11,725 bases of DNA from assembly GCA_017626275.1 (NCBI GenBank), contig JAGAJD010000048.1:1-11725 (forward strand), written 5' to 3'. Positions within the stretch are counted from its first letter, which is position 1; each line of letters opens with the position of its first letter. Under the pieces are notes generated by a model. That model ran no database searches. It worked only from the letters and a program-made list of their open reading frames with translations, and was not told where the DNA came from. The position numbers and the translations under genes were made by a program. Source of the stretch: Lachnospira sp. Its GTDB lineage: Bacteria > Bacillota > Clostridia > Lachnospirales > Lachnospiraceae. Shown here one piece after another: positions 1,428 through 8,382 of this stretch.

Positions 1428-2306
1428 CTATTGTGTAATATGTACATCTAACTGGTTAAACGGAATCTCTATTCCGTTTGCATCAAATATGTTCTTATAC
1501 TCTTCAAGAAGCTTAAATCTGGTATCCCAATACTTATCATTCGACACCCATGCCCGTGTCTCAATAACAATACTGCTGTCAGCCAGATTTTTCACAACTA
1601 CCTTTAACTCTTTTTCTTTTATTATATCAGGCGATTTCTCCAGACATTCCATAAGCAGCTTTTTTGCCTTTGATAAATCTGTCTGATAGCCTACGCCGAT
1701 TTCAATGTCAAGCCTTCTCATATCCTCGGCGCCTACATTGATAATGTTGGAATTAGATAATGCCCCGTTCGGAAGCATGATAATTTTATTATCAACAGTA
1801 TTAAGCTTTGTATACAACAGCTCAATCGCAACTACCGTTCCCTCACAGCTTCCCGATATAATATAATCGCCAACCCTGAAAGGCTTAAATATAAGCAGAA
1901 GGATTCCTCCCGCAAAGTTGGAAAGACTTCCCTGCAATGACATACCTACCGCCAAAGCTGCCGAACCAAAAACCGTGATTAACGAAGCTGTCGGAATCCC
2001 AAGAATTCCTACAACTATTAATACAAGAATTGCATACAATACCATTCTTGCAATAGAACCAATAAAGCCTACAACACCTTCATCTAATTCACTTCTTTCC
2101 AATGCCTTAACGCTAATCTTCACAACCCAGTTAATAAGCCTCTTTCCAATCTGCCACACGATTAACGCCATAATAAGCTTTCCGGCAAAGCCTACACACC
2201 AGTCACAAAATTGATTAAACATCGAAACCAGATTTTCTTTTGAAAAGAAAAATTCTATCTGTTTTACATTGTCCTGTGCAGTATCAAGTGCAATCAAAAA
2301 ATTCAT
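1428..2306 (-). CDS. MscS-family small-conductance mechanosensitive channel
   Basis: This 292-residue protein has the compact MscS architecture: a short N-terminus, transmembrane helices near residues 37-62 and 79-103, then the pore-lining helix at about 104-141. The pore helix carries the small-residue pattern FGSAALAVGMSLQGSLSNFA and the exit motif KPFRVGDYI (141-149). The cytoplasmic beta domain follows, with DNKIIMLPNGALSNS at about 172-186. Such channels open under membrane tension to release osmolytes during hypo-osmotic shock. The length matches the simple three-helix MscS type; no extra sensor domain is attached. The ATG at 2304-2306 has AGGGAGG about 8 nt upstream. It starts 24 nt after the GlgB-like gene and ends 2 nt before an intrinsic terminator, so it is the last gene of the transcript. 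The gene name cannot be assigned between the many MscS/YnaI/YkuT-like paralogues. Confidence 0.93.
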   Translation of the reverse strand: MNFLIALDTAQDNVKQIEFFFSKENLVSMFNQFCDWCVGFAGKLIMALIVWQIGKRLINWVVKISVKALERSELDEGVVGFIGSIARMVLYAILVLIVVGILGIPTASLITVFGSAALAVGMSLQGSLSNFAGGILLLIFKPFRVGDYIISGSCEGTVVAIELLYTKLNTVDNKIIMLPNGALSNSNIINVGAEDMRRLDIEIGVGYQTDLSKAKKLLMECLEKSPDIIKEKELKVVVKNLADSSIVIETRAWVSNDKYWDTRFKLLEEYKNIFDANGIEIPFNQLDVHITQ

Positions 2307-2330: not shown

Positions 2331-4721
2331 TTACTTCTTTGAAGTTTGCTGAAGCTTTTTCTTTTCCAAAGCCTTCAACTTCTTTTTAGTCTCTTCTTCT
2401 ATTTTTATTTTTAACTGCTCTGCTTCCTCTGCCTGTTTTTCTGCCTCAAGCTTGGCTTCAAGTGCCGCTTTGGCTGCCTGCTTTGCGCGCTGTTCCGCCT
2501 CCACTGCAGCTTTAGCTTCCTCTTCCGCTTTTATTCTTAAATTTTCAGCCCTGACAGCTTCCTGCTCCGCCTTTAATCTTGCTTTGACAGCCTCCTGCTT
2601 TATACTGATTTCCTCCTGCTCAATTTCAGTGTACGGCTCATAACTGTAAACTGTCACCGAAAGTGGAGGTAATGTAAGATTTACGGAATCCTCAAAACCA
2701 TTATACATTATTTTCTCCGAACGAATAAGCTCTGAATTGCCATAACCCTGTCCGCCGTATTCAGTACTATCGCTGTTAAAAATTTCCCTGTATTTTCCCT
2801 CAAGGCATACTCCCATACGGAAGTCCTCCCTTAAAACAGGTGTAAAGTTCACAACAACAAGAAGCTGTTCCTTCTCGCCATGTACAGTCTTTGAGTTACG
2901 CATAAATGCAAGAATCGTCTTTTCCTCTTCCGAGGTATTAACCCATTCAAAGCCCTCCGGCATATTATCAAGCTCGTATAATGCCTCATGTTCCATATAA
3001 AAGTCATTCAGAGCTTTTCTGTATTTTTCCTGCAAAACCCCAGACTGTCGGAAATTAAGCATTTTCTTGCCCGGATACATATAAAGATATGCATAAGCAA
3101 GCCTTAAATTAGCTGCTTTCTCCCAATCCTGCAAGACAGGTATACTCTCCGCCTGCTTACCGGAAAACTCAAGCATAAAATCTTCACTGTAATTGTAAAG
3201 CATACTGTCTGTAAGCTTATGGTAAACGCCTTTTCTAAACAGCGCATCCTGCTCAAGAAAGCTCCAGAAATCTTTCCGCCATGTATCATTCCACTTAAAG
3301 TCAAACTGCAAAGCGTCTTCAGAAGTTCCCGTCACTCTCGGCCATGCACTTGAATCCTCTGCTATAAGAAGTACATTCATATTCTGTGCTTCAAGCTGCT
3401 TTCTTAACTGTCTGAAAAAGTCTGCCGCATCAAGATTTTCATTTCCTCCGTAAATATTCGGTATCCACTCTCCCGGTCTGCGTCCGTAATCAAGGTACAT
3501 AAGAGACGCCAGTTCATCAACTCTCAAGCCGTCCACATGATATTCCCGTGTCCACATAAGAGCATTGGCTATAAGGAAACCTCTTACCTGTGGATTATGC
3601 ATGTTAAATGTGGAAACCTTTAATTCAGGACGATGAGAAAGAATTACACTGCTCGTCTCATAAAACTCTCTTCCGTCAAACCATGTAAGACCTGACTTAT
3701 CATTACTCATAAATGCCACATTCCACTTTATAATTACGCCTATATTATTCTTATGAAAAGCATTTACCATTTTTTTAAAATCATCAGGCGTACCGTAAAT
3801 TCCCGCAGGAGCAAAATAAGCCACTACCGCCGAAGAATCCATTCCGGCTGTGCCATACTCCGCCGCCGCTGTCAGCTCAACATGCGTATATCCAAGCATT
3901 TTTACAGTCTCTGCCATTTCCTCAAAGCTCTTACCGCATTTTAAATCATCAGGAGATATCTCGCATACAGATAACGGAGTATCGGTATAATTTATTTTTC
4001 TTCCTGCTGACAGCCAGTCTGAATCCTGCCATTTGAAATTTTTCGGAGTATAGACCACCGAAGCATAATCCTGAGTGGCATCACAGCACATACAGTACGG
4101 GTCGGTTTTAAGCGCAATATTTCCGCCCTTAAACTTTATCTCATATTTATAATGCTCTCCCGCTTTCATTTCAGGAATAAACAGTTCAAAAACACCGCTC
4201 TCCTCGTGCTTTTTCATCTGAAAAACTCTTCCGTCCCACTGATTGAAATTACCGACAACACTTACTCTGACTGCTTCCGGCGCCAGTACCGCAAAATTAA
4301 CTCCTCTGATACCGTTTACCGTCATCTCGTGCGCACCAAGCGTATTATACACTGCGTAATCATCACCGACTGCTGCTTTTTTAAGCTGTTCCTGTGTCAG
4401 CGCAGTATCACAGGCATATGGATCTATATATGTCACCTTATGCCCTCTCACATCTTCCGCAGTAACCGTATATGCCGTCAGCTTGCGCACAGGAATTAAT
4501 ACTGCAAACCAGCCTGCTTCGTCAACCTTTTCACAAGGATAGTCCTTTTTTCTTCCTGCAATATTAACTTTTACCTCAACTGCATCAGGACGGAAAATCT
4601 GTATAAGCATTCCCTCCTTACACATATGCGCTCCCAACAGTCTGTGTGGATTACTGCACTCTGAATACACCAGCTCTTCTATATCAGGCCAGTTCATAAG
4701 ATTGTATACATTATGATTCAT
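2331..4721 (-). CDS. GlgB-like GH13 protein, probable catalytically dead branching-enzyme paralogue with coiled-coil tail
   Basis: The 796 residues follow branching-enzyme order. An N1 domain occupies about 12-100 (NPHRLLGAH at 24-32, the GlgB N1 signature), a CBM48 about 125-225 (VVGNFNQWDG), a GH13 barrel about 245-580, an all-beta C domain about 595-695, then a K/E/A-rich helical tail at about 697-790. Region II keeps GLRVD (nucleophile position D402) and region III keeps IAEDS (acid/base position E455). Region I, normally DWVPxHF, is KWNVAFM (332-338), losing Asp and His. Region IV, normally LSHDEV, is FSGKQA (519-524), losing His and Asp. The usual MGxEFGQ...EW stretch after PGKK (550-553) is deleted. 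Alpha-1,4 to alpha-1,6 glucan branching is therefore unlikely; glucan binding or scaffolding is possible (inference). ATG 4719-4721 has GGAG 5 nt upstream. It starts 28 nt after the esterase gene. Automatic annotation would probably call it glgB. Confidence 0.85.
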   Translation of the reverse strand: MNHNVYNLMNWPDIEELVYSECSNPHRLLGAHMCKEGMLIQIFRPDAVEVKVNIAGRKKDYPCEKVDEAGWFAVLIPVRKLTAYTVTAEDVRGHKVTYIDPYACDTALTQEQLKKAAVGDDYAVYNTLGAHEMTVNGIRGVNFAVLAPEAVRVSVVGNFNQWDGRVFQMKKHEESGVFELFIPEMKAGEHYKYEIKFKGGNIALKTDPYCMCCDATQDYASVVYTPKNFKWQDSDWLSAGRKINYTDTPLSVCEISPDDLKCGKSFEEMAETVKMLGYTHVELTAAAEYGTAGMDSSAVVAYFAPAGIYGTPDDFKKMVNAFHKNNIGVIIKWNVAFMSNDKSGLTWFDGREFYETSSVILSHRPELKVSTFNMHNPQVRGFLIANALMWTREYHVDGLRVDELASLMYLDYGRRPGEWIPNIYGGNENLDAADFFRQLRKQLEAQNMNVLLIAEDSSAWPRVTGTSEDALQFDFKWNDTWRKDFWSFLEQDALFRKGVYHKLTDSMLYNYSEDFMLEFSGKQAESIPVLQDWEKAANLRLAYAYLYMYPGKKMLNFRQSGVLQEKYRKALNDFYMEHEALYELDNMPEGFEWVNTSEEEKTILAFMRNSKTVHGEKEQLLVVVNFTPVLREDFRMGVCLEGKYREIFNSDSTEYGGQGYGNSELIRSEKIMYNGFEDSVNLTLPPLSVTVYSYEPYTEIEQEEISIKQEAVKARLKAEQEAVRAENLRIKAEEEAKAAVEAEQRAKQAAKAALEAKLEAEKQAEEAEQLKIKIEEETKKKLKALEKKKLQQTSKK
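2334..2633 (-). other. Region encoding a charged alanine-rich helical tail of the GlgB-like protein
   Basis: Residues about 697-796 of the GlgB-like protein consist almost entirely of E, K, A, Q, R and L, in repeated AEEEAK/KAEQEA-type units, without Pro or Gly. This predicts a long continuous helix, either a coiled coil or a single charged helix of roughly 14 nm. It ends in a basic stretch (KKKLKALEKKKLQQTSKK). Branching enzymes normally end at the C-terminal beta domain, so this is an added module. It suggests oligomerisation or tethering. Confidence 0.8.
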
Positions 4722-6855: not shown

Positions 6856-8343
6856 CTACGCATTTAACTGATGTGCCAACTGCTCAAGCCTGTTAGTCAT
6901 TGCCACAAGCTCTTCTACTATACTATTGTTAGTCTCACTTGACTCCTGCGTATCACTTGCATGCGCCGCAACTTCCTCTGAAATTGCTGAAATCGTAGAA
7001 ATACTGTCAACAATTCCCTTATTTGCTTCTGAAAGTCTTGTAACATAATCTGCAAGTCCGCTGGAATTCTTAAATACATTTTCTGAATTTTTTTCAATTA
7101 CAACAAAGCTTTGAGATGTCTTTTCAGTAGTCTCTTTCTGTCCTTCTATCATCTCAATCATATCTGTACTTACCTTAATTACGCTGCTTATCGCCTCTGA
7201 TACATTTTTAATCAAATCGGCAATTCGTACTGTTGAATTCTGTGTCTGCTGTGCCATCTGTGATATCTCTGATGCAACTACGGCAAAACCTTTTCCTGCC
7301 TCGCCTGCCCTTGCCGCCTCAATACTTGCATTGAGTGCCAAAAGACTTGTCTGTGTCGCAATTTCATCAATAATGTCAACAATAGAATTCATCTGTTTCA
7401 TATATTCATCAAGCTTTGACAGTTCCTCAGTAACATACTCTCCTGATTCAACCGATTTGTTTACCTGTGACACAAGAAGCTCTACATTTCTATTTCCCTG
7501 TTCGATCGCCTGACGGTTATCATTCATGCTGTCGATTACCTCTTTAGCCCCTGCCTCTACATTCTGAACCATAGACTGAATGGCTTCTGTCTGGCTAAGC
7601 TGGTTCTGTACCGCCTCGGCAGTATCATTTGAGCCTGAATTTACCTCTTCCATAGCTTCTTTCATTGCAGCCATGCTCTCACCAAGCACCGAAACCTTCT
7701 GTGAGGCCTCAAGTATCTGTGAAACCATCTGGTCTGAAATCTGCATTGTATTATTTAAAATGTTTGCTGTCTTTTCATTCTGATCATGAAGCTGCTGCAT
7801 TTTTACTGCGTTAAGCTTTCCTGTCACCTTTGAAGCATATAACTGGAATGCGCAGATTAACACCATAACGAGAACCTGAATTTCAACAGCAGCTGAATTT
7901 TGTGATGTATATATTCCTTTTGCAAAAAACATTCCAACCTGACATACATTAACAATAATTGCACCGATTCCAATCGGCAGCGAATACTTAAAATCATTAT
8001 ATACCGTGATTACTACAAGCATTGGAATTGTATATACAAACGTAAGATAATTGTTAGTTGTAAACATTACAAAAATATACAATGCTGCAAAACCATACCC
8101 GATTAAATGCTTTACCATTGTTGTATCTTTCTTCTTTTGGTAGAATATAATCTCTAAAACCGGCGGTATCATTGCAAATGCTATTGTAAGCAGTACATAG
8201 ATTAATGTTCTTGCACCCTTGACAAATTCTCCAAAATATGCAACAGAAATAATAAGACTTTCTACAAAATGGCATATCATTGCAAATTTATTGCATTTAG
8301 CTATTTCAAGATTAATTTTGGTCTGTCCTTTTACAGCTTCCAT
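6856..8343 (-). CDS. Methyl-accepting chemotaxis protein with six membrane helices and no extracellular sensor domain
   Basis: From the ATG at 8341-8343 this is a 495-residue transducer. The first about 170 residues form six predicted transmembrane helices (about 19-37, 45-67, 77-94, 99-115, 121-141, 151-170) with short loops, leaving both ends cytoplasmic. No dCache/4HB ligand domain and no HAMP are seen. The rest is a long helical signalling domain with the canonical tip at about 327-357 ([21 protein letters not shown], then KGFAVVASE), which contacts CheA/CheW. There is no C-terminal NWETF tether. An upstream GTG at 8358 is in frame, but its GTGGAGGAG sequence is itself the Shine-Dalgarno for the ATG (GGAGGAG, 8350-8356, spacing 6 nt), so the ATG is the true start. 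It is the first gene of a five-gene unit. The ligand is unknown; the membrane bundle may sense a lipid-soluble compound, membrane state or energy status (inference). Confidence 0.93.
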
Positions 8344-8382
8344 AATTTTCTCCTCCACGTATTCATTTTAATATACAAAATA

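Follow-up and report, generated by a model that had tools for sequence, protein, structure and literature searches.

Non-catalytic paralogues kept beside an active enzyme are on record in alpha-glucan metabolism. In plants, ISA1 is paired with isoamylase 2 (ISA2), a GH13 paralogue that is not catalytic (PMC12510319), and in Firmicutes GlgD is an inactive modulatory partner of GlgC (PMC9093745). For branching enzymes the available parts of the sources report additional glgB copies, three in Blautia obeum and two in Dorea longicatena (PMC10395257), duplicated GBE types in other bacteria (PMC6339891) and surface glucan sites on the E. coli enzyme (PMC10254366). In a 2024 review, the GH13 column of the archaea table carries the entry "one inactive isoform" (PMC11046441), which counts against novelty. 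No inactive or pseudo GlgB family was found described in the open-licence literature searched, which is a weak test of absence from print; the sequence-only reading of this DNA had likewise known of none.

Canonical GlgB (GH13, EC 2.4.1.18) has the domain order N1-CBM48-barrel-C, and this order is shared by the product of a reverse-strand gene in the window, that is, the whole stretch of 11,725 nucleotides of Lachnospira sp. DNA that was analysed. The window comes from a fragmented metagenomic assembly of a genome that is 59% complete. The gene is named here GlgB2, as the second, often mscS-linked copy, and the canonical copy GlgB1. The features of the locus are as follows.

1428..2306, reverse strand: mscS-type mechanosensitive channel gene, 24 bp downstream of glgB2
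2331..4721, reverse strand: open reading frame of the GlgB2 probable pseudo-branching enzyme, 796 aa plus stop, ATG start
4416..4691, reverse strand: N1 (GlgB_N) domain, residues 11-102 (Pfam)
4095..4340, reverse strand: CBM48 module, residues 128-209 (Pfam)
3708..3728, reverse strand: region I, KWNVAFM (K332, F337) replacing DWVPAHF
3504..3530, reverse strand: region II, GLRVDELAS, with R400 and the nucleophile D402 retained
3342..3368, reverse strand: region III, LIAEDSSAW, with the acid/base E455 retained
3153..3167, reverse strand: region IV, FSGKQ (G521, K522) replacing LSHDE, in a loop of pLDDT below 50 over 512-526
3030..3062, reverse strand: site of the lost MGxEFxQ..EW segment, a 22-column gap with respect to P0037
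2631..2945, reverse strand: C-terminal all-beta domain (Alpha-amylase_C), residues 593-697 (Pfam)
2334..2630, reverse strand: coiled-coil tail, residues 698-796, with Ala on one heptad phase and a helix in the model

The domain order of the window protein is seen both in Pfam (GlgB_N 110 bits, CBM_48 94, Alpha-amylase_C 77) and in the leading Foldseek matches to its structure model, which are GlgBs. The catalytic Alpha-amylase model of Pfam is barely matched (23 bits with a cut-off of 22). Among the NCBIfam models, the GlgB equivalog TIGR01515 is passed (508 against 464), and NF003811 (541 against 741) and NF008967 (504 against 577), also of GlgB, are not. The closest solved structure by sequence is the Cyanothece branching enzyme, and the closest solved folds to the model are this same enzyme and that of M. 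tuberculosis (3K1D). The model has a pLDDT below 50 over residues 493-510 and 512-526, where the active-site geometry is unreadable.

A closer look at the active site was taken by aligning the window protein on the canonical GlgB of its own genome (L002, 647 aa), which is encoded on a separate contig and has all seven active-site residues. The roles of the seven positions, with D402 as nucleophile and E455 as acid/base, are established GH13 knowledge. At these positions the window protein carries K332, F337, R400, D402, E455, G521 and K522, and L002 carries D, H, R, D, E, H and D, respectively, so that four of the seven residues are lost (D332K, H337F, H521G and D522K) and three are retained (R400, D402 and E455). 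The residues that the sequence-only reading had named as gone from regions I and IV and as kept in regions II and III are exact, as are their numbers, and the deletion of the MGxEF..EW segment that it described is confirmed by the gap with respect to P0037. It had also claimed that the gene is a paralogue and proposed looking for a second, canonical glgB, which L002 supplies. A relative 80% identical to the window protein (P0002) has the same K/F/K replacements, and these two are the only rows with Lys332 among 335 aligned; another, 58% identical (P0010), has Gln at the acid/base position and Phe at the region II Arg. Judged from its own residues, the window protein very probably lacks useful branching activity. 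A weak activity of this copy would still be compatible with its retained nucleophile, acid/base and region II Arg.

GlgB2 was found in all 22 genomes of the window's genus, always as a long open frame, with the N1 domain present in 21; in the remaining one (G129) the frame begins past N1, next to unknown bases. All 22 copies have another residue in place of the region I His (Tyr in 17, Phe in 5). The other residues vary, and different species lose different ones: the nucleophile Asp is lost in 7 and retained in 15, the acid/base Glu is replaced in 5 (Asp in 4, Gln in 1) and retained in 17, and the region IV Asp is lost in 10 and retained in 12. Thus the combination K332/F337/G521/K522, put forward earlier as a possible marker of a clade, does not hold as such, since only the loss of His337 is common to the whole genus. 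Eight of the 22 copies miss this His alone among the seven residues, and for these, as judged from the motifs, residual activity would be hardest to argue away. A canonical GlgB is present in 21 of the 22 genomes, with all seven residues intact in 21 of 21; none is listed for G124 (84% complete). The beginning of the glycogen pathway is present in the genus, with glgC over the cut-off in 21 and glgA in 20 of the 22 genomes. In the window's own genome neither glgA nor glgC was over the cut-off.

The distribution of GlgB2 was followed in a sample of 120 Lachnospiraceae genomes, where it is present in at least 68 (65 placed by tree and 3 by similarity). The copy is degenerate in 20 of these 68, window included, and non-degenerate in 48, among which G033 is counted with a region IV that unknown bases make unjudgeable. 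All 20 genomes with a degenerate GlgB2 also carry a canonical copy. In one genome the canonical-type glgB (L280, G010:C176:17201-19146) is split over two reading frames, and a different contig carries the degenerate GlgB2. From 196 genomes sampled across the class, limited to the best-scoring matches, came 29 further loci; three of them are degenerate, all from Lachnospiraceae, and one further Lachnospiraceae locus and 25 loci of other families are intact. Among the best 80 of at least 595 named loci, L033, L050, L055, L061, L066, L076 and L077 are degenerate, and those titled as other phyla are intact. Three GlgBs of unusual length (P0038, P0039 and P0053, 1134-1205 aa) have intact motifs and extra sequence.

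A FastTree tree of 225 rows separates a GlgB2 clade of 133 tips (57 degenerate and 76 intact) from a sister GlgB1 clade of 48 tips, none of them degenerate, each clade holding one gene twice. Five changes between the intact and the degenerate state are seen on this tree, and at least ten on a more careful tree of 71 rows, from which the motif columns were excluded and in which the genus was thinned to 8 rows. These counts carry no direction; loss is the sensible one, since the motifs are intact in GlgB1, in the GlgB2 of most sampled genera and in those relatives outside the family whose motifs were read. On the 71-row tree separate losses have fair to strong support for L147 with L114, L022, L115 with L127, L023, L050, L066, and L076 with L027. 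Support is weak (52/84) for the degenerate clade of 20 rows to which the window belongs; the members of this clade from outside the genus may represent further separate losses or a long-branch grouping. The hypothesis that all 32 degenerate rows share one origin was rejected: forcing them to be monophyletic costs 404 log units (p-AU 7e-82), in a test where the group is named from the trait and the long branches share the pull of the model. On these trees, an old duplication gave Lachnospiraceae GlgB1 and GlgB2, and the latter has separately lost catalytic residues in several lineages, the window's genus among them.

The sequence-only reading had held that orthologues with intact motifs would mean a local mutation or a sequencing error. 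Such orthologues do exist, in 48 of the 68 GlgB2 genomes, but all members of the genus have a degenerate copy, so that the intact orthologues show ancestry and repeated loss rather than a local error. An error of assembly or sequencing in this one metagenomic contig is ruled out: P0002 carries the same K/F/K replacements and the region I His is replaced in every genome of the genus, so that the fragmented, 59% complete assembly, the one point in favour of such an error, leaves it a negligible probability.

The genomic surroundings were compared in 29 selected loci (the window with L221-L240 and L253-L260): 11 from the genus, window included, 12 further degenerate ones and 6 intact. The mscS gene is the next downstream gene on the same strand in 24 of them, made up of all 6 intact loci and 18 of the 23 degenerate ones; in 21 of the 24 the gap measures -11 to 40 bp. 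Genes for DUF1015 (20/29), serA (22/29) and serC (20/29) are also found at these loci. Intact and degenerate GlgB2 thus often occupy the same genomic place, a synteny that agrees with shared ancestry and repeated loss. No glycogen gene was named across the 29 neighbourhoods, in which Pfam annotation covered the window's copies of the neighbours, and the link to glycogen therefore rests on ancestry and on CBM48. Behind mscS (16-1277 in the window), a VTC-domain gene (10/29 loci) and a DUF4956 gene (9/29) are seen, all within the genus except for L231. A methyl-accepting chemotaxis gene (6856-8358 in the window) separates DUF1015 from serA in just four of the 29 loci (window, L222, L223 and L226), and so comes and goes.

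The selection acting on the gene was estimated from six partly overlapping pairs of close relatives, for which nine genomes of the genus were used. The dN/dS of GlgB2 is 0.065-0.116, and that of the canonical gene in the same pairs 0.032-0.112, lower than for GlgB2 in five of the six. Three wider pairs gave 0.16-0.21 at high dS, and one was undefined. In two of the close pairs the two genes have very different dS (0.66 vs 0.15 and 0.43 vs 0.08), a mismatch that makes recombination of GlgB1 possible.

The distribution of conservation along the protein differs between the groups. Mean pairwise identities for N1, CBM48, barrel, C domain and tail are 0.59, 0.55, 0.46, 0.42 and 0.46 in the GlgB2 of the genus, with N1 the highest and CBM48 fairly conserved; 0.43, 0.67, 0.71, 0.47 and 0.19 in intact GlgB2; and 0.41, 0.55, 0.41, 0.39 and 0.20 in 24 rows of other degenerate GlgB2. 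The gain in N1 and tail is therefore special to the window's group, since the other degenerate copies show no such rise. In the GlgB1 of the genus the values are 0.77 for CBM48, 0.88 for the barrel and 0.72 for the C domain. A position was counted as conserved when a single residue fills 90% or more of the rows, with 35 rows for the window's group and 76 for intact GlgB2. By this count the barrel, of 383 positions, has 181 conserved in intact GlgB2 and 67 in the window's group; N1, of 92, has 16 and 33, and the tail, of 93, has 0 and 18, respectively. The groups are unequal in depth, and the contrast between domains weighs more than any single number. Of 60 positions near-invariant in intact GlgB2 and drifted in the window's group, 56 belong to the barrel. 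The earlier statement that the rest of the fold is well kept thus holds in part, and fails for the barrel.

The tail was modelled as a single helix (residues 699-792), with low confidence near its end. In an alignment of 40 tails, made with a raised gap cost and with the ragged C-terminal ends set aside, the sole internal gap event is an insertion of exactly seven residues in 5 of the 40 sequences, and in 39 of 40 Ala occupies 82-91% of the best of the seven heptad phases. In intact GlgB2 elsewhere the tail measures from 0 to 217 aa. Among the 19 of 76 intact tails inspected as sequence, those of L017, L126, L143 and L013, from other genera, are long, Lys/Ala-rich and of low complexity, unlike the regular coiled coil of the genus. 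The sequence-only reading had listed N1, CBM48 and the C domain, all of them matched here, and had left this conserved tail unmentioned. Constraint in the window's clade has moved from the barrel to N1 and to the alanine-heptad coiled-coil tail, and the conservation of these two parts may hint at protein contacts.

Taken together, GlgB2 shows the marks of a pseudoenzyme: residue loss across a clade, purifying selection, and a paralogue of catalytic type in the same genome. Its retention despite the lost residues suggests that it serves glycogen storage by binding or organising. GlgB2 is probably, with a good deal of room for doubt, a glucan-binding scaffold or a regulatory subunit of glycogen metabolism. 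In this scenario, branching in the genomes that bear GlgB2 would be done by GlgB1; GlgB2 would bind alpha-glucan through CBM48 and the surface of its retained fold, would self-associate or pair with GlgB1, using the tail and perhaps also N1, and would tether or modulate GlgB1 or glycogen particles while transferring no chains itself.

These same data have to be set against other readings. The GlgB2 of the genus might still have transglycosylase activity that is low or altered, for instance towards another acceptor or chain length. The retention of D402 and E455 in the window, and the 8 of 22 members that miss only the region I His, are what such an enzyme would show; the nucleophile lost in 7 and the acid/base replaced in 5 of the 22, the Gln and Phe of the 58% identical P0010, the missing MGxEFxQ..EW segment and the barrel location of 56 of the 60 drifted positions all speak against it, and it is considered unlikely. 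The tight pairing with mscS (24 of 29 loci, 21 of them within -11 to 40 bp) can be read to mean that GlgB2 has left glycogen metabolism and serves the channel or the cell envelope, for instance as a cytosolic regulator or an osmotic sensor. Yet intact and presumably catalytic GlgB2 is equally placed, so that the pairing is older than the loss of catalysis, and DUF1015, serA and serC are conserved nearby too, which may reduce the adjacency to mere ancestry; this explanation is given a similarly low probability.

Neutral decay towards gene loss would account for a relaxed barrel and for the drift-like variation among species in the residues lost. It is at odds with the long frames in 22 of 22 genomes, with dN/dS values of 0.065-0.116, with a tail that preserves its heptads and with newly conserved positions in N1 and tail, and is thought highly improbable; the view of the sequence-only reading, selection rather than decay, is upheld by the frames, the dN/dS values and the new N1 and tail positions. 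The preferred reading, by analogy with ISA2 and GlgD, is that GlgB2 is a repeatedly evolved pseudo-branching enzyme and a non-catalytic, self-associating partner in glycogen metabolism, for which the balance of evidence is favourable without being compelling; a constraint on degenerate GlgB2 weaker than that on GlgB1 in five of six close pairs counts against it. A bolder version, in which a convergent bacterial class within one family forms coiled-coil glucan-binding scaffolds that organise glycogen, perhaps coupled to turgor through the mscS channel, is speculative and rather doubtful.

The genes in question are taken for branching enzymes. The window protein exceeds the TIGR01515 cut-off, and two relatives with lost residues (P0005 and P0006) are named "1,4-alpha-glucan branching enzyme" in their source, so that counts of glgB and models of glycogen in gut bacteria may mix enzymes with probable non-branching proteins. 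The stepwise and repeated loss, often in a syntenic orthologue, offers a natural series from enzyme to pseudoenzyme with which functions of GlgB besides branching can be probed.

With respect to the known systems, the window protein differs from canonical GlgB in the absence of four of the seven active-site residues and of the MGxEFxQ..EW segment, and in the presence of a coiled-coil tail. The extra glgB copies on record are also multiple per genome and come partly from the same family, and the available parts of those reports do not speak of catalytic residues being lost. Faecalibacterium duncaniae, a gut Firmicute, also has a branching enzyme numbered as a second one, FdBE2 (PDB 21JH and 21KG), which is 25% identical over the Foldseek alignment; the literature search found no paper on a Faecalibacterium branching enzyme. 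GlgD resembles GlgB2 in that an inactive paralogue is retained alongside an active enzyme, within one pathway and in similar bacteria, but it has another fold, acts at another step and has GlgC as its partner, whereas a GlgB2/GlgB1 heteromer is a proposal and the two genes lie on separate contigs in the window's genome. ISA2 is likewise a GH13 alpha-glucan enzyme paralogue whose catalysis was lost and which is retained together with an active copy; it belongs to a debranching subfamily, is eukaryotic and has had its partner binding shown, whereas pairing is proposed for GlgB2 and its losses are repeated. Should the partner role hold, GlgB1 and GlgB2 would be a bacterial counterpart of ISA1 and ISA2. 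As far as the searches reach, a maintained pseudoenzyme paralogue of repeated origin is new for GlgB.
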